From NCBI RefSeq assembly GCF_900176565.1, contig NZ_FXEH01000003.1, forward strand, positions 1-64,000: a stretch of 64,000 bases of DNA, given 5' to 3'. Below are positions 1,052-37,940 of this stretch, one piece after another. Position 1 is the first letter of the stretch. The number at the start of each line of letters is the position of its first letter. The notes under the pieces are model-generated. The model saw only the letters and a list, made by a program, of their open reading frames with translations, had not been told where the DNA came from and ran no database searches. The stretch is from Thalassobacillus devorans (lineage in GTDB: Bacteria > Bacillota > Bacilli > Bacillales > Halobacillaceae). Both the position numbers and the translations under genes were made by a program.

Positions 1052-4000
1052 TTGGGCACCCAAAGAAAGAAAAGGTTTTTAAAATGGCTCAGTCTAACAT
1101 TAGTACTAGCCTTAATTGTACCTTTCTTCAATTACACCAGTGCCGCAGCTGAGAATTCCCCAAATGTATCCATCAAAGATAATAAACAACAAGTGAATAA
1201 TAAGGTGAATCAAGACCTGATCGATTTGTTTGCTGATCAGAAGGAAGTTACTTACCTTGTGAAAATGAAAGAGCAGGGTGACACAAAAAAAGCTGCACAA
1301 GAAGCGTTATCCAAGGCAGAGGATAGTAAGGCTTCTCTTACAGCGCAGCAAATGAAACGAGTAAAGGCATCTGCAGTTGTGACAGAACTTCGTTCGACGG
1401 CCATCGAAACGCAGCAACAATTGAAGAAGCTGCTGACCGAAGCTGAAAAACAAGGCAGTGTCTCCTCGTTTCAATCTTATTATATCGTAAATGCGATGGC
1501 AGTTACTAGTAATGAAGAAGTCATGAAAAAGATAGCTGTTTTACCTGAAGTAGAAAAAATTCTTCCTAACCGTACACGACAGCTGAATCCTCAGGTAGAA
1601 GGAGCAGTGGAAGAAACGAAAGCGTCTCTTACTAAAGCGACTGACAAAGCAGAAACCAATAATACGGAATGGAACATCGACCGTGTTGGAGCCCCGCAAG
1701 TATGGTCTGAAACTGGAATCGATGGTTCAGGGGTTGTGGTGGCTAACATTGATACAGGGGTAGAGTGGGACCACCCTGCTCTAAAGGAGAAATACCGCGG
1801 ATTTGACCCAGCAAACCCTGACACTGCTGATCATGAATTCAATTGGTTTGATGCTACTGCAGGGCAAGGCGCTCCGTACGATGACCATGGTCACGGTACC
1901 CACACCATGGGAACAATGGTAGGTGCTGAAGAAGATGGTTCTAACCAGGTAGGTGTGGCACCTGGATCAAAATGGATTGGTGTTAAAGCATTTACTGCAG
2001 CTGGCGGCACAGATGTCGATCTTTTAGAAGCTGGTGAATGGATATTAGCTCCAAAAGATGACGATGGTAACCCTCATCCCGAGCAGGCGCCTGATGTTGT
2101 TAACAACTCATGGGGCGGCGGTCCCGGGCTTGATGAGTGGTATCGCCCGATGGTTCAAAACTGGCGTGAGTCTGGTATTGTACCAGTATTCTCTGCTGGT
2201 AACGATGGACCTGGTGATGGAACAATTGCCGCACCATCCAACTATCCGGAATCTATTGCAGTAGGTGCAACTACTGCTACTGACGGCTTGGCCAGCTTTT
2301 CTTCCAGAGGTCCATCTCCATATGATGGAGAAATCAAGCCGGATATTTCAGCACCCGGGGCCAACGTTCGCTCTTCTGTTCCGGGCGGCGGCTATGAAGG
2401 CGGATGGAATGGAACATCAATGGCTGGCCCTCACGTAGCGGGTACAGCTGCATTGCTATTACAGGCAGATAACTCTTTGTCAGTAGATGACCTGGAAGAG
2501 TTGATGCTTGAAACAGCAGATACAACTACTAATGACCAATATCCTGAAGATCCAAATGAAGGTTATGGCCATGGTATTGTGAATGCTTATACTGCTGTAT
2601 CAGCAGTTGTCAGCGGTATTGGCGAAATTAAAGGTTATGTATATGAAGAAGGAGAAGATGATGAAGCTCCTTCCATTGAACATGAATCTCCAAGTGAAAC
2701 TTATGAAGGTGTTCCGTTAACGTTAGTTGCAGATGTAAGTGATAATGTCAGCGTAAGCACCGTTGAGCTTTCTTACCGAATCGACCAAAGAGGTACGTGG
2801 GAGACATTCCCGGCTGACCTGGTAGATGGAGATTATCTGCAGGGAACCTATCAAACAATCCTTAATGGTGAAGATATTAGCGGAAGCCAACTCCATTATA
2901 AATGGGTAGTAAGTGACTTTGGGGGTAATGAAGTAGAGTCAGATACTTATGAAGTTGCCATCAAAGATGCCATTACCATTGGCTATGAACAGGACTTTGA
3001 AACTATCCCAAGTGGCTGGTTATCATTTGGCGAGAATAACAGCTGGGAATGGGGTGTGCCTGAAGATGGGCCGGAAAGTGCTGGCTCAGGTGAAAAAGTT
3101 TATGGAACCAATTTGACAGGCGACTATGATAACAATAGTGATATGACATTAATCATGCCGCCAGTTGAAGTCCCTGAAGGTGAAACCTACCTACAATTCC
3201 AAACCTGGTATAACCTTGAAAACAATTATGACTATGGTCATGTGGTTGTTTCTACCGATATGGAAAACTGGGAGCAACTGGCCGAGTATAATGGAACTAC
3301 GGATGGCTGGATAACCTCGGAAGTAAACCTTTCCAGTTATGCGGGTCAGAATGTTTTTGTCGGTTTCCATGTGGACACAGACTATAGTGTGACCAGAGAA
3401 GGCTTGTTTATCGACGATGTAGCTTTAACTGATCAATCATCTGGGTCTTCTGCTACAACTAATAAGCAATCGACTAAAAAGTCTGAATTAGGAGTAGTAG
3501 ATAAGGGCTCAGCGAAAATGAAAAAACCGGTTAACGCTAAGAAGCTGCTTCCAGGAGAAGTTATTGAGGTACAAGTCCCTCAATATAAAGAAAAAGGAAA
3601 GAAAAAGAAGGAAGTACAGCCAAATGTATTACCGTTGGATGCAACTGTTACTGTGGTAGAATCTGATCGTTCGGTCAGTACTAATCCTGCCGATGGAAGT
3701 TACAGATTAATGCATGCTGCAGGTGACTTTACGGTGGTGGCTGATGCTTATGGTTTCCATCCAAGTGAGCAATCCGTATCTGTTCCAGAAGATGGATCAG
3801 TAAGTGCTAATTTCACGCTGAATCCTATTGCGACAGGTACACTGGAAGGCACCGTAACAAACGAACAGACTGGTGAACCAATCGAGGGCGCTACCTTGAT
3901 GCTTATCGAAGATGCCGCAGTAGCCCCGGTTGAAACAGGAGAAAATGGTACATTCACTCTAGAAGCCTATGAAGGCGATTATACTTTAAGAGTGATGGCT

Positions 4001-5413
4001 CCGTCCTATCATGGTGAAGATGTCCCTGTTACCATCGAGGGTGGTGCTACCAATACAGTGGAAGTAGAATTGGCACCATTCATCGGTTATCCAGGTGAAA
4101 TCGGATATGATGACGGTACTGCCGAAAACGCTCGTGCATTCTATGATGCTGGTAATGGCTGGGCTGTTAAAATGTCCCTGGAAGAAGGACAGGAATCCGC
4201 TATGGTTACTGGTGGACTGTTCCGCTTCTGGACAGAGGAATGGCCAGTACCGGGCGGCAATGAGTTCCAGGTAGAAGTTTATGATGCTACAGGAACAGAT
4301 GGGGCGCCAGGTGAAAAAATCGGTGGTCCTTATGAAGCGGAAGCATTAAGAAATGGAGAATGGACACATGTAGACCTTTCCGATAAGGGAATTGTCGCGA
4401 ATGGTGATTTCTATATGGTGTATATCCAGACACAACCTAACCCGTACTCTCCTGGTCTGGCTACGGATGAAGACGGAGATTATGCTGACCGCAGCTGGCA
4501 GCTTGTAGGCGGCAGCTGGAGCAAATCTCCAGAAGCGGAAGGCAATTACATGATTAGAGCACTAGTCGATTATGCGGCGGAGGCTCCTGTAATTGAATCT
4601 CCAGCTGATGGGTCCTATACCAATCAGGAATCCATTACAGTAGAAGGTAGTGCTGCACCAACGACAACAGTCACTGTCTACAACGATGGTGAGGAGGCAG
4701 GCACTACAGGAGCTACTGAAGATGGAAGCTTTGCTGTTGATATCACCCTGGAAACAGGAGAAAATGAGCTGACAGCGATATCTTCCATGGATAACGGTTC
4801 CACTGAACCATCTGCCCCTGTAGTAGTGACATTGGATCAAGACAACCCTGTCTTGACAATTGACACTCCAACTAATGGCGATAAAACAAATAAAGAAGTC
4901 ATTACAGTTGCAGGTCAAGTAGAAGAAGAAAACCTTGATCGTGTCGAAGTTAATGGTCAAACTGCTGATGTGGATGAGGACGGTGCATACTCCAAACGCA
5001 TCATGCTATCAGAAGGTGAAAACGAAATAGTAGTCACTGCAACAGATTTAGCGGGTAACAGTGCGGAAGAGTCAGTCACTGTGGATGCTAAATTTAATGC
5101 AACTGATATTGAAAATCTACAACCAACAGAAGATAAGTATATGCAGGCTGGTGAGTCTGTCAAGATCGAGTTCGATGCCGGTCCTGGACTTGACGCAACT
5201 TTCTATATCAGAATGCCACTTACTAACTTCTCTGATCAGGCTACAGAGCTGCCAATGATGGAGACGGAAGAAGGGCATTATGTTGGCTACTGGACAGCAA
5301 CCTCTAACCTAGTAGCAGAAGGTGCCGAGATTGTTGTAAAAGCTGCCGATGATTATGGTAATGTGGCTGAAGAAGCTGCAGAAGGAAAACTTTATATTAA
5401 CACAGAAGAATAA
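1052..5413 (+). CDS. bpr: Secreted S8 serine protease, bacillopeptidase F-like
   Basis: A 1453-residue secreted subtilase, close to the length of B. subtilis bacillopeptidase F. It starts at TTG, with AGAAAGGGG 8 bp upstream. A signal peptide covers about residues 1-32 (basic start, hydrophobic core, SAAA). An inhibitor I9-type propeptide follows (about 55-180). The catalytic triad is visible: Asp234 in NIDTGVEWDHP, His281 in GHGTHTMG and Ser456 in NGTSMAGPHVAG. Downstream are an Ig-like segment, a MAM/immune-inhibitor-A-like domain (EQDFETIPSGW), two carboxypeptidase-regulatory-like modules, a jelly-roll-like segment and two bacterial Ig-like repeats near the C terminus. The protein is very acidic, as expected for salt-adapted secreted enzymes. 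It is monocistronic between two tRNA groups and has its own terminator. Confidence 0.92.
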   Translation: MGTQRKKRFLKWLSLTLVLALIVPFFNYTSAAAENSPNVSIKDNKQQVNNKVNQDLIDLFADQKEVTYLVKMKEQGDTKKAAQEALSKAEDSKASLTAQQMKRVKASAVVTELRSTAIETQQQLKKLLTEAEKQGSVSSFQSYYIVNAMAVTSNEEVMKKIAVLPEVEKILPNRTRQLNPQVEGAVEETKASLTKATDKAETNNTEWNIDRVGAPQVWSETGIDGSGVVVANIDTGVEWDHPALKEKYRGFDPANPDTADHEFNWFDATAGQGAPYDDHGHGTHTMGTMVGAEEDGSNQVGVAPGSKWIGVKAFTAAGGTDVDLLEAGEWILAPKDDDGNPHPEQAPDVVNNSWGGGPGLDEWYRPMVQNWRESGIVPVFSAGNDGPGDGTIAAPSNYPESIAVGATTATDGLASFSSRGPSPYDGEIKPDISAPGANVRSSVPGGGYEGGWNGTSMAGPHVAGTAALLLQADNSLSVDDLEELMLETADTTTNDQYPEDPNEGYGHGIVNAYTAVSAVVSGIGEIKGYVYEEGEDDEAPSIEHESPSETYEGVPLTLVADVSDNVSVSTVELSYRIDQRGTWETFPADLVDGDYLQGTYQTILNGEDISGSQLHYKWVVSDFGGNEVESDTYEVAIKDAITIGYEQDFETIPSGWLSFGENNSWEWGVPEDGPESAGSGEKVYGTNLTGDYDNNSDMTLIMPPVEVPEGETYLQFQTWYNLENNYDYGHVVVSTDMENWEQLAEYNGTTDGWITSEVNLSSYAGQNVFVGFHVDTDYSVTREGLFIDDVALTDQSSGSSATTNKQSTKKSELGVVDKGSAKMKKPVNAKKLLPGEVIEVQVPQYKEKGKKKKEVQPNVLPLDATVTVVESDRSVSTNPADGSYRLMHAAGDFTVVADAYGFHPSEQSVSVPEDGSVSANFTLNPIATGTLEGTVTNEQTGEPIEGATLMLIEDAAVAPVETGENGTFTLEAYEGDYTLRVMAPSYHGEDVPVTIEGGATNTVEVELAPFIGYPGEIGYDDGTAENARAFYDAGNGWAVKMSLEEGQESAMVTGGLFRFWTEEWPVPGGNEFQVEVYDATGTDGAPGEKIGGPYEAEALRNGEWTHVDLSDKGIVANGDFYMVYIQTQPNPYSPGLATDEDGDYADRSWQLVGGSWSKSPEAEGNYMIRALVDYAAEAPVIESPADGSYTNQESITVEGSAAPTTTVTVYNDGEEAGTTGATEDGSFAVDITLETGENELTAISSMDNGSTEPSAPVVVTLDQDNPVLTIDTPTNGDKTNKEVITVAGQVEEENLDRVEVNGQTADVDEDGAYSKRIMLSEGENEIVVTATDLAGNSAEESVTVDAKFNATDIENLQPTEDKYMQAGESVKIEFDAGPGLDATFYIRMPLTNFSDQATELPMMETEEGHYVGYWTATSNLVAEGAEIVVKAADDYGNVAEEAAEGKLYINTEE

Positions 5414-30872: not shown

Positions 30873-32084
30873 TTATCTTAAAACAGCGCCGTAAGAATCG
30901 ATACGACCATGCTCAAAGTAGTAGCCGGTTCCGCTGATGGCATCTGCGGATTGTTCAATGTCCTGGCGGATTTGCCAGTTGCTCTTGCCTTGTGCGGCCA
31001 ACAGTCCAGCCAGGCCGGCTACATGAGGAGAAGCCATGGATGTACCGGACATATAGGCGTAACCGCCACCAGGAACTGTGGAGGCAATATCAACACCAGG
31101 GGCTGTGACATCTACCCACGTGCCATAATTGGAGAAAGAAGCCTTACGATCATAACGATCGACTGCACCAACAGCAATGACATTAGCGTAGGAAGCCGGT
31201 TCAAATGTTGTGGATACCCCATCATTACCAGCGGCAGCGATAATAACGGAACCTTTATTCCAGGCATAGTTCACCGCATTTTCTAATGTAGTGGTATCAC
31301 AGTTACAGCCAAGGGACAGGTTGATGACTTCTGCTCCCTGGTCAGCAGAATAAGTAATGGCATCAGCTATGTTAGCGAGGGATCCGCCACCATTGGCATC
31401 GAGTGCACGTACCGCCAGGATTCTGGTGTTTGGTGCCATCCCGGCAACACCCTGGGAGTTATTTGTTTCAGCAGCAGCAGTACCGGCGACATGTGTGCCG
31501 TGGTCGTTTTCATCCATCGGGTAATAATCGTTATCAACAAAATCATAGCCACGAATAGTTTTTCCGTCTAAATCAGGATGGTTATAATCGACGCCTGAAT
31601 CGATAATGGCAATTTCCTGGCTGCTGCTTCCCCGGGTGACGTTCCAGGCTTGTTCCGTATTTGTATTTTGCGGACCATACTGATAGCCGCTATAGTAAGT
31701 ATCATTAGGCGTCCAAGTGACGTTGAATTTATAATTTGGTTCTGCATATTCCACGTTAGGATTATTGTTCAATGCTTTCACAACAGCTTCGACATTCCCT
31801 ACTTCCAAAACATCGAATTCCGATTCCACCGCATCCACATCAGGCTTCACCTTGGCATTCGCCTGAGCGATCGCTTCTTTTTTGGCTGACTGCTTCACAT
31901 TATCCTTAAATTTTACGACCACTTCCCCTTTTACATAATCTACTGTGCCTTTTTCAACCTGTTTCATTGGAGAGGCGTTGGATTCTGTAAGGTCCACCTT
32001 AGGTGATGCTTCTCCTACGGCAGGTAATACAGCAAGTGACAGTGCAAGTGACAGGGACAAACCAGCAACTTTCTTTAATTTCAT
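30873..32084 (-). CDS. Secreted subtilisin-like serine protease
   Basis: About 403 residues: signal peptide (1-26, LSLSLALSLAVLPAVGEA), I9-like propeptide (about 40-120, VVVKFKDNVKQSAKKEA) and a ~280-residue catalytic domain. The triad motifs are AIIDSGVDYNHPD, DHGTHVAGTAA and SGTSMASPHVAG, with AAAGNDG for the oxyanion Asn. It resembles thermitase/alkaline-protease-type extracellular subtilases. The ATG at 32084 follows AAGGAGGAAG; a longer frame to 32186 has no ribosome site. Divergent from the NprR-like regulator with 266 bp between them, so it is the best candidate target of that regulator. Confidence 0.92.
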   Translation of the reverse strand: MKLKKVAGLSLSLALSLAVLPAVGEASPKVDLTESNASPMKQVEKGTVDYVKGEVVVKFKDNVKQSAKKEAIAQANAKVKPDVDAVESEFDVLEVGNVEAVVKALNNNPNVEYAEPNYKFNVTWTPNDTYYSGYQYGPQNTNTEQAWNVTRGSSSQEIAIIDSGVDYNHPDLDGKTIRGYDFVDNDYYPMDENDHGTHVAGTAAAETNNSQGVAGMAPNTRILAVRALDANGGGSLANIADAITYSADQGAEVINLSLGCNCDTTTLENAVNYAWNKGSVIIAAAGNDGVSTTFEPASYANVIAVGAVDRYDRKASFSNYGTWVDVTAPGVDIASTVPGGGYAYMSGTSMASPHVAGLAGLLAAQGKSNWQIRQDIEQSADAISGTGYYFEHGRIDSYGAVLR

Positions 32085-32238
32085 ACTACTTCCTCCTTTG
32101 TTTGGGTTACTATACAACTTCACGCAGAACGAGGGAGAATCCTGCTGATTCTTGTTGAGAAAAACCGGCAGAATCGTGGGCCTCAAAAGGGGGAATGAAG
32201 CCGATTTTCGAAAGTGATTTAATCCATTAATAGTCCTA

Positions 32239-32254
32239 TATACCTACATACATA
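32239..32254. promoter_or_regulatory. Weak PlcR-box-like site in the protease-regulator intergenic region
   Basis: TATACCTACATACATA matches the PlcR-type palindrome TATGNAN4TNCATA except at two positions. It lies between the divergent subtilisin and NprR-like genes. The match is weak, and NprR-type regulators may use a different operator. Confidence 0.25.
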
Positions 32255-32350
32255 AGTCTACCTTCTGATTTTTTATCTGTGGGGTTCCGGTACAATGATA
32301 GTAAGGAAAAATCGACATTTTTCTACCAATTGAATAATCGGAGGGGTATC

Positions 32351-33616
32351 GTGGAGTTAACAGATAAATACCAAAAAGTAGATTATGGAAAGCTTATTTA
32401 TCTGGAGCGTGTGAAACAACGATTGACCCAAAACGAGCTTTCTCGCGGCGTATGTTCCGTACCATATTTGAGCAAGCTGGAGAATCAGCGGATTTCTGAT
32501 CCCAATCCTGAGACAGTTTCCCTTCTCCTTGAAAAACTGAAAGTTGATTATCGGTCTCAGGTATCACGGGTCCAGGAAGTTTTGGAAGATATGGAACATT
32601 GGTACAGTTGTATAACAAGTAAAAATGACAGCCAAATGGAAAGTTATTATCAGAAACTGGAATCTCTTCCTTTGCACTATTATCCTGATTTGACAATCTG
32701 GTTCCAATTGATTGCTATTCGTTATTTCATACGTAAACACGACACGTTACAGGCTGAAATGTCCCTCCAAAAGCTTGTTGCAAAAGAAAATAAGCTGGAT
32801 CGTTACCAGACTTTCTACTATCTTTACTTTTCAGGATTAATAGATTGCTTGAAGCAGCATTACAAGGATGGACTGCTGAAACTTCATGAGGCTGAAGAAT
32901 TCGCTAAAGAACAAGGTATCCATGAATCGGAGCTACTCTATCACCTTGCGCTTACCTATAGTCACATCAGCCATTCCTCGCTTGCTATCTACTACAGTCA
33001 ATCTGCCAAACGATATTTTGATCAGACGATGAACATCCACCGGGGAGTAGACTGTCAGGTTATCCTGGGAATCAACTTTTTGAGAATAAAAAGGTATGAC
33101 AGTGCGGAGAAAGTTTTCAAAGATATTCTCCGTATCAGTCAATCGATCAACGATACACAGCTGGTCGGAAAGACATATCATAATCTCGGTTTTCTCTATG
33201 CTGAAAAGGGGGAACTGGAGGCAGCGCTAAGTTACTATTACAAAGCGCTGGAAATTAAGAAGGAATACAGCAAAGGGTACTATAGCACCGTGCTACGCGT
33301 CATCCATGCCCATCAACAGCGCGGAGAAACCGGACAGGCCATGGCATGGGTCGACGAAGTGCTTGAAAATGATGATCATGAGCCGGATACGACCATCCAA
33401 TTTAAGCTCAAGAAACTGGAGTTGGCGGGAGAAAGCGATGATTACTATCAATATATCAACGACATCGCACTTCCTTACTTTTTGAAAGTAAATGATAAAA
33501 AAAGTATTAGTCGCTATGGCCAAAAAGCTGCACTATATTATGAAGAAAATTTTCATTATAAAAAAGCGAATGAGTTTTACAAATTGATATTAAATCAAGG
33601 AGGTGAAATCAGTTGA
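32351..33616 (+). CDS. NprR-like RNPP-family quorum-sensing regulator (HTH + TPR)
   Basis: About 421 residues, almost the length of NprR (423). An N-terminal Xre-type helix-turn-helix (about 10-65: LIYLERVKQRLTQNELSRGVCSVPYLSKLENQR) is followed by a long helical TPR domain; clear TPR units include TYHNLGFLYAEKGELEAALSYYYKALEIKKEY. RNPP proteins bind imported short peptides through the TPR. GTG at 32351 follows GGAGGGG; the longer frame from 32279 starts upstream of the -10-like TACAAT and is rejected. The stop codon overlaps the start of a small secreted-peptide gene, the classic cassette layout. It is divergent from a protease gene. Confidence 0.85.
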   Translation: MELTDKYQKVDYGKLIYLERVKQRLTQNELSRGVCSVPYLSKLENQRISDPNPETVSLLLEKLKVDYRSQVSRVQEVLEDMEHWYSCITSKNDSQMESYYQKLESLPLHYYPDLTIWFQLIAIRYFIRKHDTLQAEMSLQKLVAKENKLDRYQTFYYLYFSGLIDCLKQHYKDGLLKLHEAEEFAKEQGIHESELLYHLALTYSHISHSSLAIYYSQSAKRYFDQTMNIHRGVDCQVILGINFLRIKRYDSAEKVFKDILRISQSINDTQLVGKTYHNLGFLYAEKGELEAALSYYYKALEIKKEYSKGYYSTVLRVIHAHQQRGETGQAMAWVDEVLENDDHEPDTTIQFKLKKLELAGESDDYYQYINDIALPYFLKVNDKKSISRYGQKAALYYEENFHYKKANEFYKLILNQGGEIS

Positions 33617-33750
33617 AAAAAGGACTATTGAAAGTGTTATTACTCCTAATCGTCAGCACAGCAGCGGTTTATGGTACTCCAATGAATGACAGCGCAGCCT
33701 ATACCCCTGAGACTCCTAACTTCTCCGATGAAGATCATCCAGAGTATTGA
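33613..33750 (+). CDS. Putative signalling-peptide precursor (NprX-like)
   Basis: A 45-residue ORF with TTG start, overlapping the regulator's stop codon by 3 bases. The ribosome site AAGGAGGTGA is near-ideal, 6 bp before the start. The N terminus (MKKGLLKVLLLLIVSTAAVYG) is an export signal; the remainder is short, polar and acidic, ending FSDEDHPEY. This is the architecture of NprX/PapR/Phr precursors: export, then trimming to a C-terminal pheromone of 5-8 residues that is re-imported and binds the TPR protein. The mature peptide cannot be fixed from sequence; the C-terminal residues are the likeliest source. A terminator follows 12 bp later. Confidence 0.8.
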   Translation: MKKGLLKVLLLLIVSTAAVYGTPMNDSAAYTPETPNFSDEDHPEY

Positions 33751-33761
33751 TACTTAGCGGC

Positions 33762-33803
33762 AAAAGGACTCCATTCCTATTCAAAAGGGAGGAGTCCTTT
33801 TGT
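33762..33803 (+). terminator. Terminator of the regulator-peptide operon
   Basis: AAAAGGACTCC pairs with GGAGTCCTTTT over an 18-nt loop, with the stem's own T run as tail. Confidence 0.8.
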
Positions 33804-34132: not shown

Positions 34133-35554
34133 ATGCAAAAACAGATCACTACAGGTATTCATGGACTGGATACTATATTATCCGGGGGAATTCCCGCACA
34201 ATCTACCGTCATTATTGATGGAGCACCAGGAACAGGAAAAACGACTTTGGGCGTACAATTCCTATATGAAGGAATTGCGCAAAAGGATGAAGCGGGGATA
34301 TTGATTACATTTGAAGAATTTCCAGATCAAATCTATGATGATATGAAATCATCGTTCGGATGGGATTTAATGAAGCAGGAGAAAGCAGGGAAGTTGAGAG
34401 TCATAGGGATGTCGCCCGATATTTTTATGGAGCAGTTGTTGGAACCTGATGGGTTGATGGAACAAATGATCAGGGAAATAGAGTGCAAGCGAATCGTAAT
34501 TGACAGCATCAGCTTATTCCGATATTTAGCTAAGGAAGATAGTTTTGATGAACGACGTTTATTGTATCAGCTTCGTAATATTTTACGGAAATTCGGTTTG
34601 GTTTCCTTGTTGATTCAGGAAAGATCTGACTTGAATATCAGTCATGTTCCGGATTCTTATTTCATTGTGGATGGTGTGATACGCTTAAACGTCCGTGCTC
34701 ATTTAGATGTATTTCGGAAGCGGACACTTGAAGTGGTCAAAATGCGAGGAACACGAGTGATTGAAGGAGAACACACCTACAAGATTACAGATCGTGGGCT
34801 CTATCCAATGATTGCTGCTCAAACTGTAATGGATTATCAGGGCGCTGAATCAGAAAAGGTTTCTACAGGGATCCAGGGACTTGACCGCCAGCTTTATGGT
34901 GGAATGGACCGGGGAGCCGTTTACATGCTTGATACCAACAGCCGTGCCAATTATATGCCTGTCATTGGCTCCATTCTTTCTGAGCGGTTAAGAATCGGCG
35001 ACAATGTGTTGACGGTACTTTCAAGCACTCAGACGATAGACGACTTAAATAAGCTGCTTTCTCACCACCATATTGATGTAGAAGAAGTGGTCAGAAAGCA
35101 ACGGATTCACTTTATCGAGCATTATCGTCGTTCTGTACCTGATGGCTGGGAGAACTCCGTATTCTATGTGGATCAATTGTCTAACGATGATTACAATCAA
35201 TTTTTAAAGAATCAGTGTTATCCCTTGCTCCATAATGGAGAAAAGGAATGGTTTGTTTATTATGATTTGAACACGATTATCACGGAGCGGGGTACTGATT
35301 ATGTACTAAGTTCATTTGCGAAAGAAGCGGCTTTTGCGAGGTCGCTTGGAATGACGGTACTGGTATTATGTAATTTCAAAGAAGTAGGAGAACAAGTGGC
35401 TTCGTTCCTGGAACGTACCACAAATGGTGTATTTAAGACATGGGTTGATGGGTCGAATCAATACCTGCAGGTTACCAAGGCATCTAATGGGCAGCTGTCC
35501 GAACCTTATCTACTTGAGAGTATGAAAGAGCACCCGTTTATCCGCTTGATTTAG
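34133..35554 (+). CDS. KaiC-like RecA-superfamily ATPase, two domains
   Basis: A 473-residue double RecA-fold protein of the KaiC/RAD55 family. Domain 1 (about 1-235) is intact: Walker A GAPGTGKTT at 30-38, the paired catalytic glutamates of KaiC in TFEEFPD near 60, and Walker B RIVIDSISLF near 120. Domain 2 (about 240-473) keeps the fold opening STGIQGLDRQLYGGMDRG, but the P-loop is lost (DTNSRANYMP), so it is probably inactive as an ATPase. No kinase partner or KaiA/KaiB gene is nearby; this is a KaiC-like signalling protein rather than a clock. It begins a + strand run with a wHTH-like protein, a LuxR regulator and the Tad locus. Confidence 0.85.
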   Translation: MQKQITTGIHGLDTILSGGIPAQSTVIIDGAPGTGKTTLGVQFLYEGIAQKDEAGILITFEEFPDQIYDDMKSSFGWDLMKQEKAGKLRVIGMSPDIFMEQLLEPDGLMEQMIREIECKRIVIDSISLFRYLAKEDSFDERRLLYQLRNILRKFGLVSLLIQERSDLNISHVPDSYFIVDGVIRLNVRAHLDVFRKRTLEVVKMRGTRVIEGEHTYKITDRGLYPMIAAQTVMDYQGAESEKVSTGIQGLDRQLYGGMDRGAVYMLDTNSRANYMPVIGSILSERLRIGDNVLTVLSSTQTIDDLNKLLSHHHIDVEEVVRKQRIHFIEHYRRSVPDGWENSVFYVDQLSNDDYNQFLKNQCYPLLHNGEKEWFVYYDLNTIITERGTDYVLSSFAKEAAFARSLGMTVLVLCNFKEVGEQVASFLERTTNGVFKTWVDGSNQYLQVTKASNGQLSEPYLLESMKEHPFIRLI

Positions 35555-35565
35555 GGGGGAAAACG

Positions 35566-35823
35566 ATGGAGAAAAAAGAGGCTTTGCCGCTTCAGATGGA
35601 ATGTACGATGTTCTTCCAGTCTAATCCATACATGATTGAATCATTAGCTGGATTGGAAAACAAATTAGGAAGAAGAAAAGAAGACCTTCAACCAATCCTG
35701 GAGATTTTAGTCCAACAAGGGATCATCCGCCAAATAGGGAAGGATTCAAAATACTTATACCGTTATAAAGAGCCCGATATCATTACCGAAATGACTATTC
35801 CTGATAAGTTGGAGAGTCCATGA
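35566..35823 (+). CDS. Small protein, probable winged-helix fold
   Basis: An 85-residue protein starting 11 bp after the KaiC-like gene (ribosome site AGGGGGGAAA) and overlapping the next gene by 4 bp, so it belongs to the same operon. The predicted layout resembles a winged helix: short helices (YMIESLAGLENKLGRR, DLQPILEILVQQGII) and a beta wing (IRQIGKDSKYLYRYKEPD). No catalytic motif. I infer a DNA-binding or protein-interaction adaptor to the KaiC-like ATPase; the family name is not known to me. Confidence 0.7.
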   Translation: MEKKEALPLQMECTMFFQSNPYMIESLAGLENKLGRRKEDLQPILEILVQQGIIRQIGKDSKYLYRYKEPDIITEMTIPDKLESP

Positions 35824-37940
35824 TGAAAAACGCCGAGCTTTTAGAAGAGTTGCAGCACGTTTATGCGGAGCGATTCGGACTTACCATTTTGATCACAGAT
35901 GAAAATGGCGAACGGGTTTCTACTATTACTGGTGACAATGCATTGTGCGGCCACCTCCTGGAGCATGGGGATTTATGGTGCCATATCCAGGAGGCAGCTG
36001 TATGGGATTGGGAAATAACAAAACCAGCATTTTATGATATTCTTCCTGGGATTTATTTTTTAATCATTCCTATAAACGATAGGAATGGCAGCGATTATTT
36101 AATTTGGGCAGGAGTAATGGTTGAGGAAGGAACGCATGCGCTTACGAAAGAACAATTAAAAAAGCGTTATGGTCCTGATGCTGACTGGGAAAAGCTGCTA
36201 ACAGCCATTCCTGTCATCCAACCAGAGAATAAAGACTGGTGGATACATAGAAGTGCCAAGCTTTCCAGACTTGGCCAGGCTTTACTTCAAGGGGCAAGTG
36301 AGGAAGACAGCTTAGCCTGGCAGTACCCTTTATTGCAACAAGGAATAGGAACTGGGGTCACTGACATGGAGGAACTTTTTCATCTTTTTCTTGAAAAACG
36401 GGATGATTACGAATTTATTGGATTAGCAGAAGCGCAGGAAGAAGAGCAATACAGCATCACACACGTAGCGGGAAGAGAAATGGAGGGTTTGCGTGGGGCC
36501 TTATTCGCACCAGGGGAAGGATTCCTTGGCAGAATCGCCATAACGAAAGAGGCTGCCTATTGGGAAGACATTGAAAAAAATCCCCGGGCTTTTTTCTTTC
36601 ACCGGAGACACTCCTATCCAAAAACAATGAGCTGTTTTCCAATTCAGCGTTATGATGGGACAACGGCTGTCCTGTTTGGAGGGAGCCTGTCTGATACAAA
36701 AGTGTCTAAGCAGATGATGGAAACAGGACAATTCATGGCATCCATGCTGGAAGCCGGTTTATATACGGATGACTTGCAACAAGAAAATATGCATCAGGTA
36801 AATCGTCTTTCCTCCTTGATTGAAATATGCAAACTGATGGCTGCCACTCCCGATGTGAAGCGAATTCTATATATTCTAGTTGACATCAGTTTGAATCTTG
36901 TCGAGGGACCATTTACAACGGTCATTTTAAAAGATCCGGATAATGACCGGGTCCAGCTGGTCTCCCGTGGAGAAATTCCTGCGAGCATGGAAGACTATGT
37001 CCAGGAGGTCATCAAACGGCATTATAAATCCAGGACTGTTACAGCAGCTCAATTGTATGATGCGAAATGGCGGACGACTGTGATAGAATGTCCCCTTTAC
37101 TATAAAGAAGAACTGCTTGGTGTCTTATGTGTCGGAGCGGGAGACACGACGGAGCAGCAATTAAAAGAGCACCAGACTTTCTTAGATACATTGGCGATAA
37201 TAGGGGCTACTTCCCTGCAACTGGCAAAACAAGAACAGGCCTCAGAAACAGCTGCAGGGCAGGCGGAGGCGTTATATCGAGCGATTGGTCAGTTTGATGC
37301 AGAAGCGTTTGCGAAGGCAGAAACAACCGCCGCACTGGCCGGAGACTTTTCTCATAAAATTGGGCTGCCAGCCCCGCTGGTGAAAGATATTATTGCCGCC
37401 TGCCAGCTCTCCTGCTACTCTCCGGGCTTTTTGAAGGACATGCTTCCGGATAGCAAAGTACCGGATATAGTGGAAGAAGGGAAAAACTTATTGCAATCCG
37501 GTGGAAATATCGCATGGGATGACGCAAGTATCGGCAGCCAGGTAGTCGCATTGGCAATTGCACAGGAAACAAATGAGGGTGCATGGCATGCTGACTTGAC
37601 GAGCGAACAAGGGATCGTGGAAGAATTTCATTCCTTTGTAAAAGAAAGACAAGTATCGGAGCAGGAATTCACTCTCCAGGAAGAGGGTAGTAGCACACCG
37701 GAATTGATGGTCGCGGACCATGCGGTGAAAGAACAAATGAGCCTGTCGCCCCGGGAGCAGGAAGTGTTGGAATTAGTCATCCAGGGGTTGAATAACAAAG
37801 AGATTGCAGAAGAATTGTATATCAGCGGCCATACGGTAAAAAATCACGTGACAAAAATCTTCCAGAAACTCGACGTGCCTGACCGTGCACATGCCATATC
37901 GAAGGTCTACCAATTGAAATACCAGCACAGTAATCGATGA
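35820..37940 (+). CDS. GAF-domain transcriptional regulator with LuxR-type HTH
   Basis: A 706-residue cytoplasmic regulator. The N-terminal ~130 residues form a sensory-looking domain with two cysteines (ALCGHLLEHGDLWCHI). Two GAF-like domains follow (about 190-310 and 325-465). The C terminus (about 638-703) is a LuxR/NarL helix-turn-helix: LSPREQEVLELVIQGLNNKEIAEELYISGHTVKNHVTKIFQKL. There is no receiver domain or membrane segment, so the signal is probably a small molecule or the KaiC-like partner. It overlaps the upstream small gene by 4 bp and precedes the Tad locus; control of pilus genes is inferred from position. Confidence 0.82.
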   Translation: MMKNAELLEELQHVYAERFGLTILITDENGERVSTITGDNALCGHLLEHGDLWCHIQEAAVWDWEITKPAFYDILPGIYFLIIPINDRNGSDYLIWAGVMVEEGTHALTKEQLKKRYGPDADWEKLLTAIPVIQPENKDWWIHRSAKLSRLGQALLQGASEEDSLAWQYPLLQQGIGTGVTDMEELFHLFLEKRDDYEFIGLAEAQEEEQYSITHVAGREMEGLRGALFAPGEGFLGRIAITKEAAYWEDIEKNPRAFFFHRRHSYPKTMSCFPIQRYDGTTAVLFGGSLSDTKVSKQMMETGQFMASMLEAGLYTDDLQQENMHQVNRLSSLIEICKLMAATPDVKRILYILVDISLNLVEGPFTTVILKDPDNDRVQLVSRGEIPASMEDYVQEVIKRHYKSRTVTAAQLYDAKWRTTVIECPLYYKEELLGVLCVGAGDTTEQQLKEHQTFLDTLAIIGATSLQLAKQEQASETAAGQAEALYRAIGQFDAEAFAKAETTAALAGDFSHKIGLPAPLVKDIIAACQLSCYSPGFLKDMLPDSKVPDIVEEGKNLLQSGGNIAWDDASIGSQVVALAIAQETNEGAWHADLTSEQGIVEEFHSFVKERQVSEQEFTLQEEGSSTPELMVADHAVKEQMSLSPREQEVLELVIQGLNNKEIAEELYISGHTVKNHVTKIFQKLDVPDRAHAISKVYQLKYQHSNR

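Follow-up and report, generated by a model that had tools for sequence, protein, structure and literature searches.

A probable NprR–NprX-type signalling cassette with a subtilisin neighbour in Thalassobacillus

In Bacillus thuringiensis, nprR lies upstream of nprA and is followed by a co-transcribed nprX, and the NprR–NprX complex binds nprA in the region of its −35 box, as described in a 2014 review (PMC4147580) that also counts seven NprX pherotypes in the B. cereus group alone. Two residues of NprR, H201 and W167, are reported to stack on the lysine of NprX (PMC4970707). NprR has been reported in 21 genera, and all 17 of the long NprX precursors examined carry repeated pheromones, in up to six copies (PMC9765709); other reports give 34 high-confidence RRNPP clusters (PMC10075063) and duplications of nprX (PMC5199041).

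We analysed a 64,000-nucleotide stretch of Thalassobacillus devorans DNA (the window), for which an initial annotation had proposed a new RNPP quorum-sensing cassette beside a subtilisin gene. The receptor and transcription regulator (32351–33616, plus strand; GTG start, TGA stop; ribosome site GGAGGGG at 32340–32346) has the NprR length and HTH–TPR architecture first ascribed to it: 421 residues, with an HTH_3 match for the N-terminal helix-turn-helix at residues 18–66 (32402–32548, plus strand; E 1.9e-7, above the curated cut-off) and a TPR_12 match at residues 239–305 (E 4.3e-11). Immediately behind it is a predicted exported pro-pheromone gene (33613–33750, plus strand; MKKGLLKVLLLLIVSTAAVYGTPMNDSAAYTPETPNFSDEDHPEY), 45 residues from a TTG start to a TGA stop, with a charged start, a hydrophobic stretch and, at its end, the codons of the predicted mature signal SDEDHPEY (33724–33747, plus strand; seven to eight residues, with inferred ends). 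The good ribosome site claimed for this small gene is there, AAGGAGGTGA (33597–33606, plus strand), 6 nt before the TTG and invariant in five aligned Thalassobacillus sequences; the overlap of the two genes is four bases (TTGA, 33613–33616), one more than the three originally given. The divergent neighbour is a subtilisin, as annotated (30873–32084, minus strand; 403 residues, Peptidase_S8 E 3.5e-57), predicted to be secreted from an N terminus judged signal-like by eye, and the likely local target of the receptor.

A terminator-like hairpin (33762–33801, plus strand), with an 11-bp perfect stem (AAAAGGACTCC/GGAGTCCTTTT) and an 18-nt loop, appears to close the receptor–peptide unit. A terminator scan limited to loops of 3–8 nt gives a shorter stem at 33782–33802 in its place, the loop of the 11-bp stem being longer than the scan permits; its output for the cassette stretch is two terminator-like sites against a shuffled mean of 1.6. 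On the receptor side of the intergenic region, a conserved block (32250–32270, plus strand; ACATAAGT..AC.TTCTGATT) has invariant positions in the five-genome alignment. Elsewhere in the window, a KaiC-like ATPase gene (weak MEDS match), a small ORF and a gene for a GAF/LuxR-type regulator follow 3′ of the cassette on the same strand (34133–37940), and a 1,453-residue ORF about 26 kb from the cassette (1052–5413) contains a second S8 protease domain (1724–2575).

Searching solved structures with the receptor sequence returned NprR first (E 2.6e-35) and the best Rap at 2.9e-10, with neither PlcR nor AimR among the best 60 of 100 matches; NprR was also first by profile comparison. The NprR subfamily is characterized by an N-terminal HTH followed by a three-helix bundle and a superhelix of nine TPRs, and the alignment spans the bundle and all TPRs of the NprR structure 4gpk. 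An AlphaFold2 model of the receptor is helical (mean pLDDT 89.7), and Foldseek matches it best to apo NprR (E 6.2e-13, TM 0.63–0.67 by query length), with apo RapI ranking third, ahead of peptide-bound NprR chains. Judged by sequence and by this predicted model, the receptor is NprR-like: of the solved structures, NprR is its nearest relative, ahead of Rap, PlcR and AimR. None of the NCBIfam models matched the receptor at its cut-off; its architecture, its closest relative of solved structure and the order of the genes lead us to class it with the NprR subfamily. The closest named match is the receptor of T. devorans CECT 7046 (96% identity).

A mobile origin was considered and rejected. The receptor has no match among phage records at E ≤ 1e-15, ten plasmid records match it at 22–29% identity, and the receptor–peptide pair sits on a 240-kb contig in a position common to the genus. 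The same genome contains three further matches to the receptor: one at 28% identity that is itself followed by an exported peptide, one at 22% and one TPR stretch. Two same-genome NprR-like receptors, L002 (C3:188759–189976) and L003 (C4:83165–84394), are each followed by an exported peptide ORF; the L002 peptide ends NDSDYPRLGSVEKV, and that of L003 ends ADKPRVGGLNSIEITD, with a KP core as in B. cereus NprX.

Residues were compared through an alignment of the TPR domain to NprR (86/340 identical, 25%) and across a survey of 89 receptors. H201 and W167 correspond to H205 and Y171, both kept in all five Thalassobacillus genomes; a histidine at the H201 position occurs in 14 of the 20 rows listed for the receptor's branch (described below) and in 17/89 receptors overall. 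The pheromone histidine, replacing the NprX lysine before the proline, would fit the H205/Y171 pocket. Other NprX-contact residues (R126, N306 and D309) are replaced by H130, G309 and S312, the closed-form switch residue Y165 is replaced by Q169, and R343 falls in an alignment gap. The four Spo0F-contact positions D107, Y118, E188 and Y223 read Y111, A122, E192 and M227, which leaves E188 as the sole residue kept (E or D within Thalassobacillus). At the tetramer positions Y223 and F225 the receptor has M227 and I229, an unusual pair given how widely the survey keeps the originals (Y in 43/89 and F or Y in 62/89, respectively). Y118 is outside the six commonest survey residues at its position, and losses of the other replaced NprR residues are common across the survey. 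Because several of the Spo0F-binding and tetramer residues are replaced, we do not call the receptor a bifunctional NprR of the B. cereus type.

The peptide gene occupies the same place in all five Thalassobacillus genomes, the window's own included, and SDEDHPEY is invariant in all five, with only synonymous codon differences. When the window is compared with strain MSP14 or T. cyri, the last ten codons carry synonymous changes only, whereas the middle 15 codons carry 12 non-synonymous and 2 synonymous changes. In T. pellis the last ten codons contain one F-to-Y replacement, with SDEDHPEY intact, and the start codon is ATG in place of the TTG of the other genomes. Comparison at the codon level shows strong constraint on the C-terminal end of the predicted precursor and a drifting middle. 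The 45-residue peptide gave no match in Pfam or NCBIfam, and its tail is, in line with the initial remark, unlike the NprX pheromone SKPDIVG, to which SDEDHPEY has no sequence match. A peptide of Rossellomorea sp. AcN35-11, behind a receptor of 34% identity, ends NEDHPEY. Of 397 genomes, two contain the DNA pattern for EDHPEY followed by a stop codon, one being that of the window and the other G071; we take the latter match as chance because its frame has only 14 codons and no exported leader.

Receptors of this kind are common, a profile match at E ≤ 1e-50 being found in 219 of the 397 sampled genomes of the order. For the survey, 126 ORFs (E ≤ 1e-10, < 600 aa) were collected and those sharing the same last 350 residues merged, which gave 108 distinct receptors. 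A single strict rule finds a small exported ORF downstream of 69/108 receptors, compared with 9/250 control ORFs (non-receptor ORFs, ≥ 300 aa, from the same loci). The initial annotation was prepared to give up its reading if the peptide ORF were not conserved beside homologous regulators; these counts and the five Thalassobacillus genomes speak for conservation. For 39/108 receptors the strict candidate was absent, and a looser scan gave plausible ones for some. The motif [DE]x0-2[HYFL]P occurs in 48/69 tails (shuffled mean 15.8, maximum 27) and, counted on distinct tails, in 41/61 (shuffled mean 13.5, maximum 23).

The survey yielded several further observations. One control ORF (L017), not recognised as a receptor, is followed by a 45-residue exported ORF that ends AEDHPPWFGVSSVQVDNNN and resembles a pheromone precursor; given its tail, AEDHPPWFG..., the control count of 9/250 may include a real pheromone. 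Tandem copies of the signal occur in pro-pheromones of L096 (in G070), L118, L122, L016, L116, L115, L120, L121 and L026, examples being EEHPKFN in five copies, EPDHPKIV in three, DELYPDP in three and HESHPDP in six. Neither the strict nor the relaxed scan found a convincing downstream peptide for a series of Fictibacillus receptors (L054–L056, L058, L061, L063, L065, L066, L068–L072, L076 and L085), which may be orphans or have their peptide gene elsewhere. By eye, two NprR-like receptors (L042 and L044) lie beside divergent ORFs of 1,534 and 1,518 aa that suggest peptide synthetases, and another (L047) beside genes that suggest bacteriocin-type maturation.

The subtilisin is divergent from and adjacent to the receptor in all five Thalassobacillus genomes, with 81–97% identity in the four others. 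S8 proteases occupy eight places in the 4.07-Mb genome, so a chance S8 neighbour is unlikely for one gene. On the minus strand, two blocks that are invariant in 5/5 aligned intergenic regions, GAATCCTGC (32137–32145) and TGTTGAGAAAAA (32153–32164), form a candidate receptor-binding site at and above the −35 of the inferred subtilisin promoter. We read its −10 as TATAGT (32114–32109), which is broken in T. pellis; this promoter is not among the six promoter-like sites returned by a promoter scan. The intergenic region also has a 13-nt direct repeat, whose subtilisin-side copy is weaker in T. cyri and strain MSP14. From gene position, we infer that the peptide controls the protease. The locus is probably an NprR–NprX-type quorum-sensing cassette of Thalassobacillus whose mature signal would be close to DEDHPEY and whose local output would be the subtilisin. 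Counted against this explanation is the Rossellomorea pair that shares the signal end, as its 13-kb locus has no S8 or M4 match.

The receptor–peptide pair could also be real and have its main output elsewhere, in sporulation timing or in distant genes, the subtilisin being a conserved neighbour and not a target. In B. thuringiensis, NprR is reported to control at least 41 genes and to act on Spo0F as well (PMC3325205, PMC4970707). In our survey, 77/108 receptors have no S8 or M4 gene within 700 bp (some loci offering only ~1.5 kb of flank), and the KaiC-like and LuxR-type genes downstream of the cassette are kept in two of the four other Thalassobacillus loci (L034 and L036). The subtilisin, however, is kept in five of five Thalassobacillus genomes where the other flanking genes are not, and three of the four Spo0F-contact positions are replaced. 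When the genome was searched for the combined block near the subtilisin −35, with up to three mismatches allowed, the locus itself was the only match. Proteases are also enriched beside receptors: an S8 or M4 gene lies within 700 bp of 31/108 (22 of them divergent upstream) but of only 5/132 control ORFs from the same loci (p 7.5e-8, kinship uncorrected; five S8/M4 queries, four of them taken from neighbours of surveyed loci). We regard an output elsewhere as unlikely, though it deserves to be kept in view. On the receptor tree, the S8 and M4 labels need four changes each among 30 labelled rows, and the survey points to a secreted protease being retained beside NprR-like receptors in several lineages, its class varying.

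The tree comprises 89 of the 108 receptors (at least 200 bits, < 480 aa), B. cereus NprR not being among its rows. The Thalassobacillus rows fall within a loose group of 23, with a fork support of 88/31. Tails of the form [HYFLI]Px[YWF] make up 12 of the 15 distinct tails in this group and 1 of 35 elsewhere (Fisher 4.5e-8, shared descent ignored), a comparison based on the 61/89 receptors that have a peptide, collapsed to 15 + 35 distinct tails, with two relaxed-scan peptides of Priestia koreensis added. The relaxed scan gave six more peptides that were left out; all of them come from outside the branch, and by eye none has the motif. The branch limits were drawn after the peptides were seen, the fork is weak and kinship is uncorrected, so the association is a lead only; as such, the survey suggests that signal ends track receptor branches.

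A more ambitious reading joins these strands. It supposes a branch-specific signal class [H/Y/F/L]-P-x-[Y/W/F], in which the endings EDHPEY, EEHPKF, EHPDW, VYPNY, EELPEY and LLPPY would be placed, and a Thalassobacillus receptor that, having shed the Spo0F and tetramer residues, would act as a density switch devoted to the adjacent protease (a slot filled by S8 or M4 according to lineage), which would also free the pheromone. Taken as a whole, this is quite unlikely; were it true, the subtilisin would free the pheromone and the loop would be closed.

Part of it can be put separately: alone or in addition to being a target, the subtilisin might release the pheromone by cleavage, in which case the cassette would carry its own maturation protease. 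Subtilisin, Epr and Vpr are reported to mature some Phr peptides of B. subtilis, and Bpr and NprE to be involved in the case of phage Phr peptides (PMC11343458); the processing of NprX was termed uncharacterized in the 2014 review (PMC4147580), and the protease is adjacent in every Thalassobacillus genome compared. Against this, any of the other S8 proteases among the eight places in the genome could perform the cleavage, and M4 proteases, of different specificity, occupy the same place in other loci, which leaves the proposal a slim chance.

That the 45-codon ORF is an untranslated or chance frame behind a receptor whose true ligand lies elsewhere is barely credible: the TTG start, the lack of a family match and the 9/250 controls with a candidate under the same rule would allow it, but the codon-level constraint on the last residues, the invariant ribosome site, the exchange of TTG for ATG in T. 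pellis and the recurrence of the same peptide end behind the distant Rossellomorea receptor all argue against it.

Returning to the preferred explanation, a cassette of NprR–NprX type with the subtilisin as local output, we infer its translation, processing, uptake, binding and protease control as follows. Once the precursor had left the cell by the Sec route, an extracellular protease would release roughly its last seven residues (DEDHPEY or SDEDHPEY), and this mature signal would be re-imported by an oligopeptide permease; these export, trimming and re-import steps are taken from the known behaviour of NprX and Phr peptides. The genome has three SBP_bac_5 places. Inside the cell, the signal would lie in the TPR groove, where its histidine would sit between H205 and Y171 and stand in for the lysine of NprX. 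The loaded receptor would then act through the conserved block near the −35 to turn on the subtilisin promoter. We propose that, with the promoter switched on in this way, a population would release protease together at high density.

DEDHPEY is a short candidate signal that can be synthesized, and it comes with a one-promoter readout, which would make NprR signalling testable outside the B. cereus group. Natural receptor–pheromone pairs of this sort could be swapped to learn the rules of specificity.

Among the titles listed from the article text of the CC-licensed PMC literature, none concerned this cassette; where occurrences of the word Thalassobacillus were counted, no listed entry contained it. 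The initial description of a new RNPP cassette stands for the signal sequence and falls for the kind, NprR being reported in 21 genera (PMC9765709) and matched in 219/397 genomes here. The RNPP reading itself holds in its conserved peptide, its NprR-like receptor and a subtilisin linkage kept in the genus; it is weaker on newness of kind and on the proposed control of the protease, and its overlap length is corrected to four bases. What appears new, in that it did not turn up in the literature matches listed, is the Thalassobacillus signal sequence with its S8 partner; the NprR-type kind is known.

Set beside the described systems, the cassette is closest to NprR–NprX–nprA of the B. cereus group (4gpk, 5dbk). 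Both have an HTH and TPR receptor of about 420 residues, a peptide gene of 43–45 codons directly 3′ of it and an adjoining gene for a secreted protease. H201 is kept, W167 is exchanged for another aromatic residue (Y171), and a proline follows a basic or imidazole residue in both signals (KP in SKPDIVG, HP in Thalassobacillus). The Thalassobacillus signal end, SDEDHPEY, shares with SKPDIVG only this [K/H]P core position, its protease is of class S8 and not the neutral protease NprA, and Y118, Y223, F225 and Y165 of NprR are A122, M227, I229 and Q169. Rap–Phr systems belong to the same TPR fold class, with RapI and Rap3T the next structural matches after NprR; the Thalassobacillus receptor has an HTH_3 domain, whereas Rap proteins are described as lacking an HTH (PMC9765709). 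PlcR, of PlcR–PapR, is described with five TPRs (PMC12700828), unlike the 421-residue receptor that aligns with NprR over its full length. The Rossellomorea sp. AcN35-11 pair (L038) shares the EDHPEY end and a histidine at the H201 position; its peptide gene starts 16 bp past the receptor stop, whereas the two Thalassobacillus genes overlap.
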